The translations under genes and the position numbers were made by a program. The notes beneath the pieces are model-generated. The model made no database searches and was not told the origin of the DNA. It saw nothing but the letters and a program-made list of their open reading frames with translations. Shown here in pieces: positions 2,884-12,949 of a DNA stretch of 64,000 bases (the stretch's first letter is position 1; every line of letters begins with the position of its first letter). The stretch is from Rhizoclosmatium globosum (Eukaryota > Chytridiomycota > Chytridiomycetes > Chytridiales > Chytriomycetaceae), in the NCBI GenBank assembly GCA_002104985.1, contig MCGO01000121.1, forward strand, positions 1 through 64,000, in the 5' to 3' direction.

Positions 2884-3230
2884 TGTTTTTGGAATGGTGA
2901 ATGAATGAACACTTGAAGTCTTGGATGGACGGGGTTGTTTGTCTTCAGAAAGAATGAAACTGAAACAAGGGGCAAACGAAGGTTTTTGTTTGTTTGGCTT
3001 GGTTCGTACCTTGTTCAGACACCAAACTGAAATGAGGACTAAAAGCGGTCACGGTGGCGTGGGAAGCCTCTCACTTGTATCCATTTCACATGATTGATTT
3101 CAAAGATTGGACGGTGGCTTCAGTGTGTCCTTCTCCATTGAAAAGGTCAAGCCAGGGACATTGGGTCTATATAAAATGGCACTGTTTATTCGGGCACTAT
3201 ATGAGGTCTCTCTCTCTTTCTCTATGTAAA
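2884..3230. other. Intergenic: promoter side of family member A, 3' side of the PRM10-like gene
   Basis: No coding sequence is supported here. The segment holds a short pyrimidine run (tctctctctttctct near 3210) and should contain the promoter of the reverse-strand gene starting at 2883. Confidence 0.5.
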
Positions 3231-4634
3231 TTAAATAGTCTGATACTTGTTCTTGGGTCCACGGATAGGGAACACAATGAGGTTTGACAAAAAAAGCCCA
3301 ATCGCAAGAGACATGCAAATCGTCAACATTTGGAATGTGAAGTTTACACCTAGAATGAAACATTAGAGAAGCTTTCGGAAGTTGGAGAGATTCTAACCAT
3401 CAACCACAGAGGTATTCGGGGATGATGAGTTTCCCGCAGGTAAAACTGCCGTACCACCAAAGAATCCCAGAGTTGACTTGACACTTAACGATCCAGGCAC
3501 TTGAATCAGAATCCCAGAAAGAATAGGCGCAATCGCAACGTCATTCGTGATTCGTGCATCTAAAACAAGTTACTTTCAAATTGAAGGACATGAACGAAAC
3601 TCACAAATATTTCCAGTCAATCCAATTGTAAATCCTGCAATCGCAGTAATCGCTGTCGGAGTAGCTGCAAGCTGTTGAACGTAGTTCAAAGCCGTACTAA
3701 CCCCGTACCCAAGGCCGGACGAAAGAACCATGATTGGCCATTGGTGTTTATTCGCTTGGAATAGTAAATTGATTGACATGGACATTGGTACAAAGAATAG
3801 AAGGGACCATAGAGGACTTGTTGGGTCTAATTTTGGAGGAGCTGGGTATGGATCTTTATGACAGAGACGAAACTCGTTAGTTGAAATAGGTACATATCGA
3901 ATTATACTAACTCGAATCCCACAAGACTAAAGCAGAACCAATTGTCATTCCGAAACCCAAAAGCATCGCAATGAAAAGGGCTCCAAAGATGCGCACTGTG
4001 CCGGAAACCATGTTACGCGTTGATAATTCAATAATTGCTATATTTTGAAGTTAATGAATAAAACTGGAGGAACTCTATTGTAGCTACCAATCGTTAACGA
4101 GAGACCAGGAAGAAAGACGGCCAGGGAGGAGAGCGTCACTTTAACATAATCGAATTGAATTCCATTCTTGTGCAAGAATCCCTGAAGTGCACGTGAAATA
4201 AAAGTGGCGACAAGACTGCACAGTTAATTTAGCACAGCGAGTCAGAACGCATGAAACCACCAACCTTCCAACAAACTCCAGCAAGAAACTAAATGTCATG
4301 TGTTTCCCAGCAAGCGACGTCAACACTCCAATCAACAGCCCCAAAAACCCAGCAATAACACTCTCCAACCACGAGATCTGAAACAAGAGCAACGAGATAC
4401 AAAACGACGACACCGGATATGTCAACAAAATCACCCAATCAGGATACCCCTTCGCAACCCTAACCCCCTCCAACAAATCAATCGCATCATCAATCGAAAT
4501 CAGTTTCTCCGTCAACGTCTGACAGAGTGCGTTCACTTGCGCGAGTTTCGCCATATGGATCCCGCCGGGAGCTTTTATAAAGTGTGTGTGTTGGCGGTGG
4601 TCTTCGCCGCCGAATGAGATCATGATTAGGCCGG

Positions 4635-4639
4635 GGAAG
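4635..4639. repeat. Target-site duplication, left copy
   Basis: GGAAG directly before the left LTR, repeated at 11649-11653. Five bases is the usual length for Ty1/copia integrases. Confidence 0.95.
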
Positions 4640-5028
4640 TGTTAACTGCTGCCGGGATGTGTAATTGCACGAGAATTCGTCCGTCCCGAAGAAAAGAGGA
4701 AAACCGACATGTGTTTCACATTGTCGGAATCACGAAATTCTCCGATCCGGTTTGTCAACATCAAAGACCGAACACACAACTACCGGCACACCCAAGCCGT
4801 AATCGGACTTGGACAAGACACGAGCGTTAAGCCGAACACCCAAGCTCCAGCGTCAGTTCTTCCAAAAGCGTAAGTCACGCATCAATCATCTGATCGCGCA
4901 CTAACCGCTTTCGGCGAATTGGCTTAATCGTGTCTCGCTACCGCTGACATACATCACAAGGTAATCAGTTTATTGACATTGTATCCACTCAAGGAATGGG
5001 ACCTATGGTAAGCCCATAGACACCAACA
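4640..5028 (-). repeat. 3' LTR (in element orientation)
   Basis: 389 bp, TG...CA ends. Matches the copy at 11260-11648 over its whole length as far as I can read. Confidence 0.96.
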
Positions 5029-5039
5029 CCCCCTTGTGA
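5029..5039 (-). other. Polypurine tract candidate
   Basis: On the reverse strand CACAAGGGGG abuts the 3' LTR, the position of the plus-strand primer in LTR elements. A near copy (ACAAGGGGGTATAG) lies about 50 bp upstream in element orientation. Confidence 0.7.
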
Positions 5040-5283
5040 CAACAAACTGTTGGCATTGTGATGTTACCAGTTGACTATACCCCCTTGTAAGTCAAGTATC
5101 ATGTTTTCATATTACGTATTAAACCCCCAAATACAGGCGACCTACTCGCGACGTGCGACAAGGGAATTGAACCCAACTGTATTTGTTGCGATGTCAACTA
5201 AGGGTTTAAAACTATTTATTAGATAAGAACACTAAATAGAAATAAATCAATCAACGTATATAACGAAGAAAGAAATAAAACCA

Positions 5284-8200
5284 TTAAAGCGCCCTAAACG
5301 ACTGAGACAGAGTCGAAGGCTCCGCTACACCCGCTCTCACCGCCGCAAAACTACGCATACCAAGTAAACCGAGAAGATAATGGTGTTGAGGACTCGGTAA
5401 AGCTTTTGTCAAGATATCCGCTAACATCAACTCTGTTGGGCACCACAACAACTTCACGGTTGCATTATCAATGTTCTCACGAATGAAATGAGTCTTGATT
5501 TCCATGTGCTTAATACGAGCGTGATGAATTGGATTAACTGCAATCGCAATCACTGATTGATTATCCTGGTGCATAGTGGTAGGTGTGTCAACCTTGAACC
5601 CTAATTCACTCAAGAATCCTCTGAACCAAATAGTTTCCTTGATTCCTTCGACCAACGCACCGATTTCAGCTTCGGTCGAAGATAAGGCAGTCGTAGCTTG
5701 TTTCTTGGAAAACCACACAATCGGGCAACCAAACAACATGAAGATGTATCCACTGCGAGATTTACGATCGTCTTCCTGACCGTAACTAGCGTCTGTATAT
5801 CCGACTTCCCTCATTCCTTCAGGTAACACCATCCGACGTTCTTGATTAAGATCCTCCACAGCAGTGTCGAATACAATCATTTCAGGAGACGCGGATTTTC
5901 GGAAGAATAACCCAAGATCGTGAGTTTTTCGAAGATATAATAGGACACGTAGCGCAGCTTTCATATCATGAATACACGGAGGTGATTTCTGGTACTGAGC
6001 CAATGTGTTGACGGAATACAGAATGTCTAAACGAGTTTGCATCGCCAAGTACAACAATTTCGCGATAAGTCCCACGTACACTGATGTTTCTTCAGGTCCG
6101 AGGTGTTGACTGTTCGGATCATGTTTCCAATCTGTCGCCATAGGAGTCTCCTTCCATTTCTCTTCAGGAATATCCCACACGTTGTGCTCTTCCAGTAAAG
6201 AACGAATGTAGTTTGGTTGTCCAATCCAGATCCCATCTTTCGTATGTTCAACCTGAATCTTCAATATCCATTGAGCAACGCCTAAGTCCTTAATTTCGAA
6301 ACGAGCACGGATTGAGTCTTTGACTTTCTTTATGACTTCCTTGTCACTGCATGCAACGAGGATATCATCAACGTACGTCACGACAAGAATCAGTTTTCGT
6401 GTTTCCGGATCGATTTTAAGGTAGGTGCAAGAGTCAGACTTCATTCGAGTGAATCCTTGTTCAATGAAGAACGCGTCGAGTACTTTCCACCATTCACGCC
6501 CAGCCTGATGTAATCCGTACAGGGATTTGATCAGTTTTGCGTACAGTGGTGTTCCATCGGGAGCGAATTCCTCGAATCCTTGGGGCATTTTCATCCAATT
6601 CGTTTCAGAAAGTGTGCCGTACAGGAATGCAGTCTTAACGTCAAGTTGTTCAACAGTAAGTCCAAAAGCAGCGCTCATGGCCAGTAGGATACGGACCACT
6701 TTGGCTTTCACGACAGGTGAGTGTGTAGAGTTAAAATCAACTTCAGGTACTTGAAAGTTCCCCATAGCGACCAGTCTTGCTTTGAAACGGTCAATGAATC
6801 CATACGGGTTGATTTTGTAATCGAAGACCCACTTAGACGCAATGGCCCGTCTCCCTTTCGGCAAGGGTTCCACTGTATACACTCCTCTATTCCGGATTGA
6901 CTCTATCTCCACGAGCATCGCACGTAGGAAATACTTTCTGAATCGACCTTCAAGAGCTTGTCGAACATTTTTCGGGACTGGAGGGGCTGATGAGATATGG
7001 ATCTCCTCAGTTGGGATATCAGATTCTGCAGCTTCGTCCCAATCAAACTGAAGAGGCGGGAGACGCGCCCGGTTAATTCGTTCGCGATCTTCCTCCAACT
7101 TGCTCAATTTCCCGTCGAATAGTTTGTCAATCTTTTCCAGAGCTTTGTCACGCTTCTTCTCCAAATGAGGATGGCGCACTCCCTTCACGGAATCGATCAA
7201 GTCACTGATTGCATAGAACTCATCAATTTCAGATTCAATTTCTCCAACGACCTCGAGCATCCTCTTGTCTAGGTGAGATTGAACTTCTGAGTCAGAGACT
7301 GTACTTATGTTTTCGAACGCTAATAACCCTCGTTGACGGTGATCTGGACATTTATGGGTTTAGTTGAACTCAAATCCGTTGAGTTCAAGTTATTTACCAT
7401 TAGCGAGAGGGGATCCTACTTCTGCTTGCTCCACAGTGGAGTTCAGTGCAAGAATAGCGTCAATCGCTTCCAGTTTTTCACGGTTTTTGGTCACATTAGT
7501 TACCAGGTTGGCTCGGTGATAGATCAACTTCAGTATGTCCGAATCAACGACTTCCCCTTTCGCAAGCGCAGCTCGAGTACGTTTCCGCAGTCGATATCCG
7601 TCACTTGTGGGTGCTAAGTTGTCATCCTTCCAGTGCGATCCATCTAAGCCCGTTTTCTTGTTTGACGGCGCCGCTGCGAGGAGGGTTTCTTCTTCCTCAG
7701 CATCGGAGTCAGGATCTATGTATTGATATAGTGGTTGGATCAGATGGTAATTGGGCTGATTCGTTGTTACGGATCTTACCATCATCTACAGATTCCAAGT
7801 CACCATCAACTGTCTTACTGGTCACAGGTGTAGTCCGTTGATCATCACCATCATCGTCGGACTCATCTATTTGCAGTTGTCGTAAGTCATAATCTGTTAT
7901 CAACAGCTGTCGGATAAGGGACATCCACTCACCCAACAGTTCCGGCACTTTCTCAAGGACTTCACCCTCAAATTCAATTTGTCCGTCATCTTCAATCAAC
8001 TCATCGTCTGCAAGAACGGTTTCGCCATCCTCGTCATCTGAATCGTCGTCGATTGGTTCTGATGCCTCCGCATTTTCTTCTGGTTCCCAATTCAAGTTTG
8101 TGAACGGGTTCAAATAGGCAGGCTTCAGAGTTTGACCAGGCAGAATTGACTCCAAGAGTCGGATTTGAAATTCCTTGTGAACTTTTCGAGTGCGGTACTT

Positions 8201-11200
8201 ATAGACATACGCGATTCGCGCTTTATGATCGATCCACCCAAGGAAGAACGCGGGCTCAGCCTTATGCCCTGGCTGGCAGCGCTTACTACGTTTCTCCTTG
8301 CGTACAAAGACGGCTACAAGACAACCAAAGATTCTCACCAATTCTGGTTTCGGTTTTTCGCCTGTTTCCAGTTCATGGGGAGATTTGCCATCGTTTCCAA
8401 AAGGTATCATGGTTCCAATCAGACAAGAATATCTCATCGCGTATGGAAACCACAGTTGTTTCTGTCCAGCTACTGAGAGAAAACATTGAGCTCTTTCGCG
8501 ATAAATCCCAAGGGGTCTCTCTGCAGCATTCAATGCCTGTGTATCGGCTGGTGACAATTTCATTGAGATCTGGTTTGGCTCGTGAGTGCGACAGTATTCT
8601 TCAATCTCTTTGCACTTGAGCTCGCCTCCATCTCCTTGAATCACGACCAACTTCTCTTCCAATTCAACTTCTTTGGTTTTGCAAAACGAAATGAAAGCTG
8701 ATTTGAACGTATCCATCCCATTGAGGAACAGACACCAGGCCTTTCGAGTATATTTGTCGTAGATGAATGAACAGTTAGTCTCTCCATTTCGTCCTCGACT
8801 TTTCAGCTGGAACGAATCTTCCGAGATGGTGTGGAAACGCCGGGTTGGTACTGAGCCTACAGATCCTGTCTTCCGCCTTCTGAAATTCACCAATTGACAC
8901 ACTAAGCAGTCGGTTGGGTCCTTCTTGAAGTTGTACGAAATGCCAGCCATCTTCAACGTTCTTTTCACCATCTCCATTCCAACGTGGCCCAAGCGATTGT
9001 GCCAGGTAAGGTACGGAACGTGCTTCGATTTTCCAGTGAATGTTTTTGTACCCAATGTGTTTGCCTTAATCTTGGGTGCGATTGCAGGAGGGGTTCCTTC
9101 CATCAAGTCCAAGTAATAGAGGTTTCCAATGCGTCGTCCAATTTTCAACGTACGGTCTGTCTTTCTCAGGTACAAGTAGACTGCCGAATCGCCGAAAATG
9201 ACGTAATCATCTGTTCCCTTCACAAGCTGGCTGATCGAAATCAGTGTTTCCGCAAGCGCTGGGACCCAGAACGCAGAGACTTCCCTCTTTACTCCACCCA
9301 AATTGAGAGTGATCCATCCTTTCCCTTTAATCGGTACAGGCGAATCATCCCCAAGGTAAACAAATTCGTTATCCAAAAATTCGAAAGTTTCACGATTAAA
9401 GCGCACCAGCGAATCAGTCATCAGGTTTGTTGCCCCCGAGTCCATCATCCCTACCACACCCGTTTTATTATCTCCTTTCTTTGCCACTTTCATTCCTCTT
9501 GCAACACAAATACCATCTTCACTCATTCCCGCTATTTGATCCATCCAATAATTTTCAGATATCGGTTGAGTCGTCGAGGAACTAGAGTTAAATGGTGAAC
9601 CAAAGAGCGGTTGCCCAAAGGTCTGTTTAGATTGTGTTTCAAAGAGGGAGGCGTTTCAGTTTCGAAACTTTCAAACATTAAAACTCACATTGGCTAGGTT
9701 CTTTGCAGCGTTTGCTACTTGCTTCTTATGAATTCCGAGACCCTTTCCAGTTGCATCACCAGTGTTCATTTGAGAGGACTGGCCTTGGGAAACTCCCATT
9801 CGCTTCTGCATGATCTCGAATAAAGCGTTTTTGTTACCAGTCTGCATACTTTGTAGCAACTTTGGACAGGTTGTGAATCCGTGAGTGGAACCATCGTCGC
9901 AAGCTTGGCAAGGCTCAAATTTGGCCTTCTTTGGTGCTTTCGGATTGTTTCCCCCATTTCCTCTCTTATTCCCTGACACCGCGGCTGCTGTAGCGTCTTG
10001 GTTGGCTTTGGCGTCAGCTTTGGCTTGCTGTTGGGCTTGTTTCTTTGCAGCCTGAGCAGCTGCAGCGGTTTCCTTCCTTTCCTTTTCACTTGTCGAAGTG
10101 ATTTCGGATTGTTGGGCACCCGCTGTCAGTTCCTCGTTGGTACAAAGGGTTTGGAGTTCGTCCAACAAGCTGTCACACGTACCAAAGTTGGCGGCAAAGT
10201 CGTTTGATTCCATCTTCTGGCGTATCGGAACGAATCTATGTTGATTTAAACAGATTTAGAAACGTTTCAAAACAGGTAGTTCCGTGAGGCGTGGAACGCC
10301 TCGCTACACCATAATTTTAGAGTTTGAATTTCACCTTAATCCAAAAGAAGTCGATCCGTCAGGGAGGGAGAGCAAGGCTTGGCTCTGTAACAGCTCCTTG
10401 ACGAGGATTCCAATGAAAGTGGATGCAAGTTTGTCTGCGTCTGGAACGTCACCGAGTCCTTTCTTGACTCTCGAGTCAAGGATGGAACAGTTTCGGATCA
10501 CCTTCCGCCAATCACCTACAAACTTTCTCCAGGCTTTGGTCTGGTGTCTCTCCTTTGGGCTTATCGTTGTTTTGAAAACCCGAGCGAACCAGTGGTGAAA
10601 CTGTAGTCCTTTGAATAAAGAACCATTAGTTTCGAATTCCGATTTAAAAAGACCAACGTCACTTACCGCTTCCTTCCAAGTTTGCCATCAGTTTTCTGGC
10701 CACACGGAAAGCGGTGTATAAGTTTGGCTTTTCTTTGTACTCAACCGAACCCTTGATTTCATTCCATCTAGATTCAGGAATGAAAGTCTCAAAGGCACTT
10801 TGGGCTATGTCTTCTTCGGCTCTCCACTCTTTGTACTCAGCCAACTCCTTGGAGTAGGTTTCGTACTCGTAGCGGATGCTCTTTTCGGAGAAATCATAAC
10901 CCTCCAAATCCAATCTAAACTGATTTAGATCCGTCGAATACTTTGTGAATGCTTCTGCCTTGGCAGCATCATCCATATTCGTATAATCAGGAGCAGCAGG
11001 ATAGACAGGTCTTGGATGCGGATTCTTTGCCGTCACAGGGCTCGGGTGAGTCTTCACTACGTCATTGTCTAAATTGTATCCCAGGCCGCTAGCTCGCAGA
11101 AATTTCCCAACCTTGTCCAACTGTTCGCCTACGGTTGCGGGTTCTTCGCCACTCACTTTAGGAGGACGTTTAACACCAGTATCCGCTTTGCGTTCAGTTT

Positions 11201-11216
11201 TCTGTAAGTTGTTCAT
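5284..11216 (-). CDS. Spliced Gag-Pol polyprotein of the copia element
   Basis: Six exons: 10667-11216, 10335-10608, 9689-10235, 7780-9622, 7398-7715, 5284-7319. They sum to 5,568 nt, 1,855 residues plus stop, with every junction in frame. Gag covers roughly residues 1-470, with a zinc-knuckle variant CQACDDGSTHGFTTC (C-x2-C-x5-H-x4-C). Next come the protease DSGA near 515, an HHCC pre-integrase (WHNRLGH...CLVC) near 665, and an integrase core with D, D and E. The reverse transcriptase has YVDD near 1490, and RNase H has YTDAS, TEAE and HQDNQS from about 1685. No frame carries Gag and Pol together without splicing, and there is no frameshift site of the Ty1 kind. No disabling mutation was seen. 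Confidence 0.93.
7320..7397 (-). other. Intron 5 of gag-pol (78 bp), before reverse transcriptase
   Basis: GTAAAT...TTATTAG with a CAACTAAAC branch-like site. TAA in frame two codons in. Confidence 0.85.
7716..7779 (-). other. Intron 4 of gag-pol (64 bp), after integrase
   Basis: GTAAGA...ACATAG, phase 1, length not a multiple of three. Confidence 0.85.
9623..9688 (-). other. Intron 3 of gag-pol (66 bp), Gag/Pol boundary
   Basis: GTGAGT...AAACAG, phase 0, TGA in frame six codons in. Retention would end translation at the end of Gag. Removal continues into protease. Confidence 0.87.
10236..10334 (-). other. Intron 2 of gag-pol (99 bp)
   Basis: GTGAAA...CATAG. In-frame stop (TGA) at the donor. 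Contains the hairpin at 10276-10307. Confidence 0.8.
10276..10307 (-). other. Hairpin inside intron 2
   Basis: Perfect 7-bp arms GAGGCGT/ACGCCTC with a 3-nt loop, flanked by a further GTAG/CTAC pairing. It is the only strong local fold I noticed among the five introns. Confidence 0.6.
10609..10666 (-). other. Intron 1 of gag-pol (58 bp)
   Basis: GTAAGT...CAAAG with an ACTAATG branch-like site. Length is not a multiple of three and the unspliced frame ends two codons into it. Confidence 0.85.
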
Positions 11217-11236
11217 TTCTGGGACGACGGTGATGA

Positions 11237-11259
11237 GGATGCTAAGACGAACGCTTTTG
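11237..11259 (-). other. Primer-binding-site position, not of the standard TGG type
   Basis: The sequence after the 5' LTR reads CAAAAGCGTTCGTC on the reverse strand. It does not start with TGG, so it does not pair with a CCA-ended tRNA. Its complement ends ...AACGCTTTTG, which resembles the 5' anticodon arm and loop of a tRNA with anticodon UUG (Gln), as in the half-tRNA priming of copia and Ty5. The tRNA assignment is a guess. Confidence 0.4.
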
Positions 11260-11648
11260 TGTTAACTGCTGCCGGGATGTGTAATTGCACGAGAATTCGT
11301 CCGTCCCGAAGAAAAGAGGAAAACCGACATGTGTTTCACATTGTCGGAATCACGAAATTCTCCGATCCGGTTTGTCAACATCAAAGACCGAACACACAAC
11401 TACCGGCACACCCAAGCCGTAATCGGACTTGGACAAGACACGAGCGTTAAGCCGAACACCCAAGCTCCAGCGTCAGTTCTTCCAAAAGCGTAAGTCACGC
11501 ATCAATCATCTGATCGCGCACTAACCGCTTTCGGCGAATTGGCTTAATCGTGTCTCGCTACCGCTGACATACATCACAAGGTAATCAGTTTATTGACATT
11601 GTATCCACTCAAGGAATGGGACCTATGGTAAGCCCATAGACACCAACA
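11260..11648 (-). repeat. 5' LTR (in element orientation)
   Basis: 389 bp, TG...CA ends. Should carry the element promoter. Paired with 4640-5028. Confidence 0.96.
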
Positions 11649-11653
11649 GGAAG
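11649..11653. repeat. Target-site duplication, right copy
   Basis: GGAAG directly after the right LTR. Counting it once restores the reading frame of the interrupted transporter. Confidence 0.95.
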
Positions 11654-12949
11654 AGGATGAAGTCGGCTTGGACGGACATGGATTGTGCGACTTGGGTCAT
11701 GTGGTGTTCGATTCTGTGGGAGGGGGCGCCGTAGGTTTGGAAATCGCGGGCTAGTTTTATGAGGAAGTTTCGTTTGATGTTCTGGTTGTGGGGGGATAGT
11801 GGGGGGAGTTGGATTCAGAAAATGGAATGATGGAAGGAAAGGGGTTACCTCGTTGTCTATTGCTGTGTCCGCTGGATGATGTGGTGGGGCTTCGCTCTCT
11901 AAAACAGATTCGCTTGCACTTTTCGAGAGACTGAGTTGGATGTGTCGTTTCCGTTCAATAAAAGAAACACTTGTCCGATTTGTGATCCGACGGCTGCTTT
12001 CACGTCGAACTGAATCCACCTCGTCTGCGTCTTTCAGAGGAATAGAGTCTGCTCCTGAAATCTCATCCTGGTCTTCACTGCCTCCCACTGTAATTGCCGG
12101 AGTCGCATTCACCGAAGGTGCACCAGCGGCACCAGAACTGAAGGCCGTCACTGCCGCCCAAGTTGAGATTCCCTTCTTTCTCATGAGTTTGGCTACATCT
12201 TCTGGGCCATGGATTTCTTCTGGATTTTGAAGTTGCAGAATTTCAGCTGTATCAGAAAACATTTGGGCTTCTTCTGTAAAGAATTTCGGAGCAGATGGTA
12301 CGCGTTTAAGGTGGTTCTCTCTATCTGCAGGTTGATGAGAAGTAGTTGAGGAATGATGTGCAGACCAATCTCGAGGGTCGTGTTTTGGTTTGTGCAGTTG
12401 TGGCAAGTGATAACTTCCTCTTATTGGTTCTTTTATGGAGGTAGTTCCTGATGAATGAGGGTGAATTGAGGAGGTAGCCAGAGTTGAGTCAGAATAAGTT
12501 CTTTTCATTTCGATGCCATGTTCTGTAAAGCTCAACGGCCGTTTCTTTAACGAAGAAGGAACAGCTGAAGCAACGTCTTTTGAGGCTGATTGATTTGCAT
12601 CAGCTTGATCCAGTTCGTTCGTGGTTTGAGGATGTTTAGTGAACCAGCCCGAGAGAAAGCCGCCCGAGCTCAGTGCCGCAACCGCCAATTCATTTGTATT
12701 TGGGTGTGAGAGATGTTGAGTTGGAGGATGTATTTGGAGGGTGTTCGTTGCTTGGTTGATTAGATTGGATTGGTTGGCGTGAGCGAGTGAGTCATTTGGC
12801 TGTTCGGTGTTCGATTCGTCTACTTTGACAACTTGTTCATGATCTTGTTCTTGGTCGTCGTTGGCATCGGTGAAGGAAAAGAGCGCCCGTCCTCGAGTCG
12901 GCGGCGAAGACGATGAAGACGGTGGCGTTGTTGAAGGCGGTGGCGGCAT

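Follow-up and report, generated by a model that had tools for sequence, protein, structure and literature searches.

The window analysed here, a stretch of 64,000 nucleotides from Rhizoclosmatium globosum (contig MCGO01000121.1, positions 1 to 64,000), contains a Ty1/copia element at positions 4640-11648 on the minus strand. The element is bounded by two LTRs of the TG...CA type, the 5′ LTR at 11260-11648 and the 3′ LTR at 4640-5028 (both 389 bp, minus strand), with 0 differences between them. The 5-bp target-site duplication GGAAG was found outside both LTRs (4635-4639, second copy at 11649-11653), and a polypurine tract (AAGGGGG, 5029-5045, minus strand) was recognised by eye ahead of the 3′ LTR. 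No tRNA was found for the 17-base stretch located 3′ of the 5′ LTR, where a primer-binding site was sought; this stretch matched only the four copies of the element (at most one mismatch). The insertion site is a ThrE-family (PF06738) gene, which occupies positions 4144-4641 and about 11649-11820 of the minus strand and runs in the same direction as the element. When the flanks were joined with a single GGAAG, an open frame passed through the insertion site, which indicates that the insertion in this gene is real; the ThrE-family match (E = 6.4e-22) lay directly downstream of the site. The first-pass annotation had given the extent of the element as 5284-11216, which holds for gag-pol, read from 11216 to 5284, the element itself being larger. 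Elsewhere in the window, the uL2 ribosomal protein was 96% identical to that of Obelidium mucronatum and 92% identical to that of Chytriomyces sp. MP71.

The gag-pol region consists of open frames in series with five breaks, and was predicted to comprise six exons and five introns (all on the minus strand), at the places where the first-pass annotation had put them. Exon 1 (10667-11216) is open from the ATG at 11216 and encodes the start of gag, with a relative at L012 2216-2710; exon 2 (10335-10608) continues gag in an open frame and aligns to L012 directly 3′ of intron 1 of that locus; and exon 3 (9689-10235), also open, ends gag with a zinc-knuckle-like CX2CX5HX4C motif identified by eye and no Pfam match above the cut-off. 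Exon 4 (7780-9622) encodes the protease (DSGA) and the integrase. Its Pol_BBD match was above the cut-off, the gag_pre-integrs and SH3_retrovirus matches were slightly below theirs, and no match to PF00665, the model of the integrase core, was obtained at E ≤ 0.1, the DSGA and D-D-E-like residues being located by eye. Exon 5 (7398-7715) is an open linker in which no domain was found, and exon 6 (5284-7343) encodes the reverse transcriptase (RT) and RNase H up to the stop codon, with an RVT_2 match (E = 4.1e-57, 194 bits versus a cut-off of 31.6) and YVDD and RNase H motifs seen by eye. The domain order protease-integrase-RT-RNase H, based partly on profile matches and partly on motifs found by eye, is the copia order. 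The TG...CA LTRs with a 5-bp target duplication, found in 4/4 copies, are as in Ty1/copia elements (Pseudoviridae).

The predicted introns, each kept in all four copies of the element, are intron 1 (10609-10666, 58 nt, GTAAGT...CAAAG, phase 1) and intron 2 (10236-10334, 99 nt, GTGAAA...CATAG, phase 2), both inside gag, intron 3 (9623-9688, 66 nt, GTGAGT...AACAG, phase 0), intron 4 in the integrase-RT linker (7716-7779, 64 nt, GTAAGA...CATAG, phase 1) and intron 5 (7344-7397, 54 nt as the best reading, phase 1). All five had GT-AG ends and a CTRAN-type branch-like site, the distance of which was poor in introns 3 and 4. The sizes of the first four agreed with the first-pass annotation, and the 78 nt given there for intron 5 was replaced. 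Possible AG ends of this intron occur at 54, 69 and 78 nt and share one frame, and the 54-nt AG (end at 7344), located 20 nt downstream of a branch-like CTAAAC, would give a protein of 1863 residues. With the 78-nt form (7397-7320), all exons were open in phase from the ATG at 11216, and the spliced frame came to 5568 nt, i.e., the 1855 residues plus stop and the exact multiple of three previously noted. Such a multiple is weak evidence by itself because 1 to 17 GT-AG pairs join the frames at each junction (4, 1, 3, 17 and 5 pairs of 40-120 nt at junctions 1 to 5, the predicted ones included). Overlap of the flanking frames is confined to junctions 1 and 4, where a frameshift could join them, and is absent from junctions 2, 3 and 5; the overlap at junction 4 makes the ends of intron 4 less certain. 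Read without splicing, the frame from the ATG at 11216 stops within intron 1 after approximately 185 residues.

At least three further full insertions of this element (family A) were found in the genome (C61, C111 and C224), with the target duplications CACGT, GGTAC and CCATC, respectively. The search covered 56.9 Mb in 420 contigs, the one genome of the host group among those searched, and all copy counts are lower bounds. In each of the four copies the LTR pair showed 0/389 differences, and all five introns were present in every copy. The distinct 5-bp duplications, the identical LTRs and the retention of the introns together point to four recent, independent transpositions via intron-bearing RNA, in agreement with the first-pass annotation, which had read the matching LTRs as a sign of recent transposition with introns. 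The genome search proposed there returned only intron-bearing copies of this family: 601-base probes over introns 1-2 and introns 4-5 each gave four matches, all with introns, and no intron-less family A copy. Processed copies, also named in that proposal, were not found in family A, and a precise loss of one single intron was found in family B, as described below. Exon 4 carried deletions in two of the four copies (three of 1 bp in L009 and one of 10 bp in L011). The LTR probe of family A gave 20 matches, of which eight belonged to the four copies and the others were solo, partial or diverged LTRs. Probable solo LTRs, 95-100% identical to the probe and away from the four internal matches, were located in genome G000 at C124:128856-129244, C415:118636-119024 and C201:135961-136348.

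The distribution of variable sites was determined in the predicted spliced frame. Among the four copies of family A, 6, 2 and 28 variable sites fell at codon positions 1, 2 and 3, respectively (1864 sites each), and the introns contained 7 variable sites out of 341, a value close to the third-position rate. The corresponding counts for family B were 38, 15 and 107 (1641 sites each; 11 aligned rows, two of which represent a single duplicated locus), with 11 variable sites out of 326 in the introns, about half the third-position rate. The codon-position bias in the spliced frame indicates that the predicted exons have been under protein selection.

Three related families in the same genome, B, C and D, also carry short GT-AG introns (five in A, five in B, six in C and four in D), with an RT identity to family A of 52-53%, 61% (over part of the domain) and 55%, respectively. 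The 20 introns of the four families were 46-99 nt long; 17 of these were measured by script (GC content 0.29-0.45), and three were placed by eye from printed frames (D intron 3, one C gag intron and the C RT intron). One further gag intron of family C had two possible ends. Among the 17 introns measured by script, four (three from B and one from D) showed no CTRAN branch-like site. By eye, intron sizes and signals were host-like, and four exon gaps of host tubulin genes resembled the element introns. Introns at places 1, 4 and 5 were common to all four families. The counterparts of intron 1 were identified by alignment in D and by eye in B and C, and its phase was 1 in A, C and D and 0 in B. 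Introns 4 and 5 were in phase 1 throughout, their equivalence being based on order and phase, as the linker around them cannot be aligned between families. Family D lacked intron 2, and at the protein level its frame was continuous, with no residue missing or left over: in the D segment, the exon 2 alignment ended at residue 97 (score 128 versus a shuffled maximum of 42) and exon 3 resumed at residue 101 (score 62 versus 51, partly low complexity). The first-pass annotation had suggested that retention of intron 3 could set the Gag to Pol ratio. This suggestion is not supported: introns 1 and 2 lie inside gag, so that unspliced RNA read from the first ATG would give only approximately 185 residues, and an intron in the Gag/Pol linker was seen in families A and D only (phase 0 in D, ends placed by eye), the B and C introns lying elsewhere in gag. 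In both copies of family C, a 57-nt intron that is in frame and free of stops was located within the RT domain (L014 minus strand, locus coordinates 2967-3026), and unspliced family C RNA would yield an RT with 19 extra residues.

The insertions of families B and C were examined in the same manner. Both family C copies had a clear 5-bp target duplication, and clear 5-bp duplications, all different, were found in six of the nine family B rows with LTR pairs and were unreadable in the remaining three. The family B LTR pairs were identical in 7/9 rows (two of them cut short), with differences at one site in L013 and at three sites in L029. Near-identical contig pairs extending beyond the elements were also observed (L017/L022, L012/L031 and L015/L016, 99.3-99.99% over about 8-10 kb). 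These stretches would represent either uncollapsed haplotypes or segmental duplications, and copy counts need care accordingly.

The precise loss of an intron was observed in family B. A 56-nt insert in the integrase region (GTGAGT...TTACAG) was present in nine of the 11 close B loci, and L017 and L022 lacked exactly that insert at the DNA level. As L017 and L022 were alike through their flanks (7761 bases, a single mismatch), they represent one insertion on duplicated contigs and the loss counts as one event. The same intron was present in L034 and L035 (C372 and C109), both of them older members of family B (identity to L013 of 94.6-97.5% over long pieces). In a tree rooted on these two loci, the 11 close rows were grouped with a support of 100/100 and L017 and L022 were nested among the intron-bearing copies, so the absence of the intron is a loss. 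L017 retained introns 1, 4 and 5 and the second gag intron. We read this loss, from the alignment of genomic copies, as the trace left when a spliced RNA was reverse-transcribed; it is explained by partial splicing of the RNA or by template switching from a spliced to an unspliced RNA or the reverse. Three other candidates were set aside: a moved B intron at C372/C109, the loci being older B copies; an intron loss in L029, where the gap is a deletion of approximately 441 nt; and introns in the broken RT pieces at C372/C109, the coordinates of which look like frameshifts instead. An inverted segment of approximately 325 nt, derived from the integrase region of the copy itself, was present in both older copies (L034 6357-6680, L035 6073-6396).

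The relationships of the intron-bearing families were determined from an RT tree of 57 of 60 rows, built by a quick method with SH-aLRT support only (F_L018, J_L007 and E_L033 were dropped, having no usable RT stretch). Families A-D fell in an 11-row group (support 96) nested in a 23-row group (support 99). Family E, with a single frame of 1958 codons and an RT 47% identical to that of A, lay outside the 23-row group, and P0241, a frame of 1637 residues joining integrase and RT, lay inside it and outside the 11-row group. Farther relatives also had long frames (search limited to 1077-3426 residues). The nearest metagenome RTs, P0001-P0018 (48-62%), were frames of 490-873 residues with no integrase match, in a protein-only search limited to about 373-1186 residues; P0023 and P0025 (41-43%) have integrase and RT in one frame and were placed outside the group. 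No long-framed member of the A-D group was found among the 120 matches listed (7992 candidates of 1077-3426 residues scored). Since the single-frame relatives lie outside the A-D group, the introns were probably gained on the way to this group and then turned over, a reading that the two length limits of the searches keep short of proof. Exon 2 aligned to family E with a score of 38, which does not exceed the maximum of 40 reached by shuffled sequences, and exon 5 had no convincing match among 26 metagenome RT proteins (best E 0.30). No donor was found: at E ≤ 1, intron 3 of A, the B integrase intron and the C RT intron had no match beyond their own families, the search for introns 1, 2, 4 and 5 of A being confined to the 601-base probes. 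A search of viral contigs gave nothing. In two distant copia families with approximately 30% RT identity (L006 856-1117 and L007 2547-2779, minus strand), a break of 230-260 nt was observed between integrase and RT; both breaks start with AAAGGTCTGATCAACC and perhaps represent another intron or another device.

Taken together, we consider it probable (roughly 0.85) that the element is an autonomous-looking Ty1/copia retrotransposon that depends on host splicing for its Gag-Pol message, while its unspliced RNA is packaged as the genome. The same estimate covers the assignment of the five breaks as real spliceosomal introns, which follows from comparison: the codon-position bias, the introns shared between families or precisely absent from them, and the independent insertions. 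According to this explanation, full-length transcripts would run from LTR to LTR. One share would be fully spliced by the host, giving the only RNA able to encode full Gag and Pol, and would be translated as one Gag-Pol polyprotein. The other share would stay unspliced, yield at most approximately 185 Gag residues from the first ATG, and be packaged and reverse-transcribed; the intron-bearing new copies imply reverse transcription of RNA that still held its introns. The earlier proposal that the element needs both spliced and unspliced RNA is supported to this extent. All introns jointly would act as the divider, with splicing separating message from genome, and this separation would leak rarely, as when a family B RNA lacking one intron was apparently copied back into DNA. 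Candidates for the way in which the unspliced RNA would be chosen are slow splicing, its retention in the nucleus and a packaging signal that splicing would remove. Fully spliced RNA would still encode everything and should make a good genome, and none of the examined A, B and C copies lacked all introns.

The last step of this explanation is the only one contested by the strongest alternative, to which we give somewhat less than an even chance. Here, the introns are real passengers with slow gain and loss, host splicing is incomplete, and residual pre-mRNA enters the particles by chance, with no dedicated switch. The variation of introns between families, the recent loss of one of them and their host-like sizes and signals (by eye) fit such a reading. 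However, places 1, 4 and 5 recur in families whose RTs are merely 52-61% identical, and packaging of spliced RNA in proportion should make intron-less copies common, which is not what the examined A, B and C copies show. Mobilisation in trans, in which uninterrupted elements such as family E supply the proteins and the genes of the intron-bearing copies are unexpressed, appears unlikely: the 1958-codon frame of family E is present in the same genome, but the strong codon-position bias in the spliced frames of A and B, the RT identity of only 47% and the lack of any listed match of the family A LTR probe in the E loci argue against it. LTR chemistry requires sense RNA with R, a primer site and a polypurine tract, and the family B loss, with its exact GT-AG ends, points to the copying of a sense RNA on at least one occasion. 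Both points make it very improbable that the template was an antisense transcript, in which introns go unrecognised, an idea put forward for Penelope-like elements in the available part of PMC3846280, even though retention would then be explained without escape from splicing. The reading of the breaks as frameshifts, read-through sites or mutations of a dead element, to which the frame overlap at junctions 1 and 4 lends something, was rejected as highly improbable given the codon bias, the identical breaks in four independent insertions, the GT-AG ends and recurring phases over four families, the precise absence of introns in relatives and the lack of overlap at junctions 2, 3 and 5.

The preferred explanation, host splicing for the message and unspliced RNA for the genome, was compared with known systems. 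Retroviruses and Drosophila copia balance spliced against unspliced RNA, and their splicing removes pol or gag-pol. The first-pass annotation had likened the element to retroviruses; the balance is alike, but the comparison fails for the coding content, as splicing of the window element removes no gene and nothing coding. The splicing of Drosophila copia is mentioned in PMC3735527. In the portion available, that paper describes BARE1, a barley copia element in which translation and packaging draw on distinct RNA pools and genomic copies retain an intron. In BARE1, unspliced RNA encodes Gag-Pol and removal of one 104-nt intron gives Gag alone, so the coding is the reverse of that found here. 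For EVD/ATCOPIA93 of Arabidopsis, unspliced full-length RNA is described as enriched in the nucleus and the spliced form as mostly cytosolic (PMC8892269, in part), a possible model for two pools here; it differs in having one intron with early polyadenylation and unspliced RNA as the Gag-Pol message. The pattern of both elements, with Gag-Pol from unspliced RNA and Gag from spliced RNA, does not apply to the window element, the unspliced frame of which ends after approximately 185 residues. Ogre, a plant Ty3/gypsy element, resembles it in that the whole polyprotein needs splicing of a subset of transcripts while genomic copies keep the intron (PMC6317226, as far as available), but Ogre has one intron between two ORFs, versus five across a copia gag-pol, gag included. 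The sunflower LTR elements Tyran and Varan likewise have more than one intron, with unspliced RNA and a short isoform from which two introns are spliced (PMC7730604, in part); their isoforms contain partial single-protein ORFs, and that text does not present the introns as needed for Gag-Pol. In Cer1 of C. elegans, a protein from spliced mRNA is required for export of the unspliced RNA (review PMC12786077, in excerpt); its intron layout differs from that of the window element. The same review reports that new copies of a Ty element given an artificial intron, likewise an LTR element with an intron, were intron-less, the opposite outcome to that seen here. New copies of Penelope-like elements can keep introns (PMC3846280, in part), but these are non-LTR elements with other replication chemistry. 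No copia element with a gag-pol that needs several introns removed was found in the open-access literature searched, subscription papers lying mostly outside this scope, and the nearest published cases within it were Tyran and Varan of sunflower, from which two introns are spliced.

As LTR elements copy through RNA, introns should soon vanish from them. The published exceptions found in the accessible texts involve one or two introns, which serve a partial product or join two ORFs, and the four families described here keep four to six short introns, predicted to be essential for full Gag and Pol, despite RTs differing by 39-48%. In genes that are copied rapidly, they preserve a natural record of how introns are gained, recur and are lost exactly, and they raise the testable question of how spliced mRNA stays out of the particles. 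Tentatively, and with less confidence than we give to chance packaging, this copia clade may use constitutive multi-intron splicing as the divider between genome and message. Introns would then mark the genome RNA and be gained and selectively kept for this reason, copies of spliced RNA would be rare and do poorly, and the elements may acquire new introns when these reverse-splice into an RNA that is later reverse-transcribed. If this is true, the elements would offer a living system in which introns are still being gained and lost.
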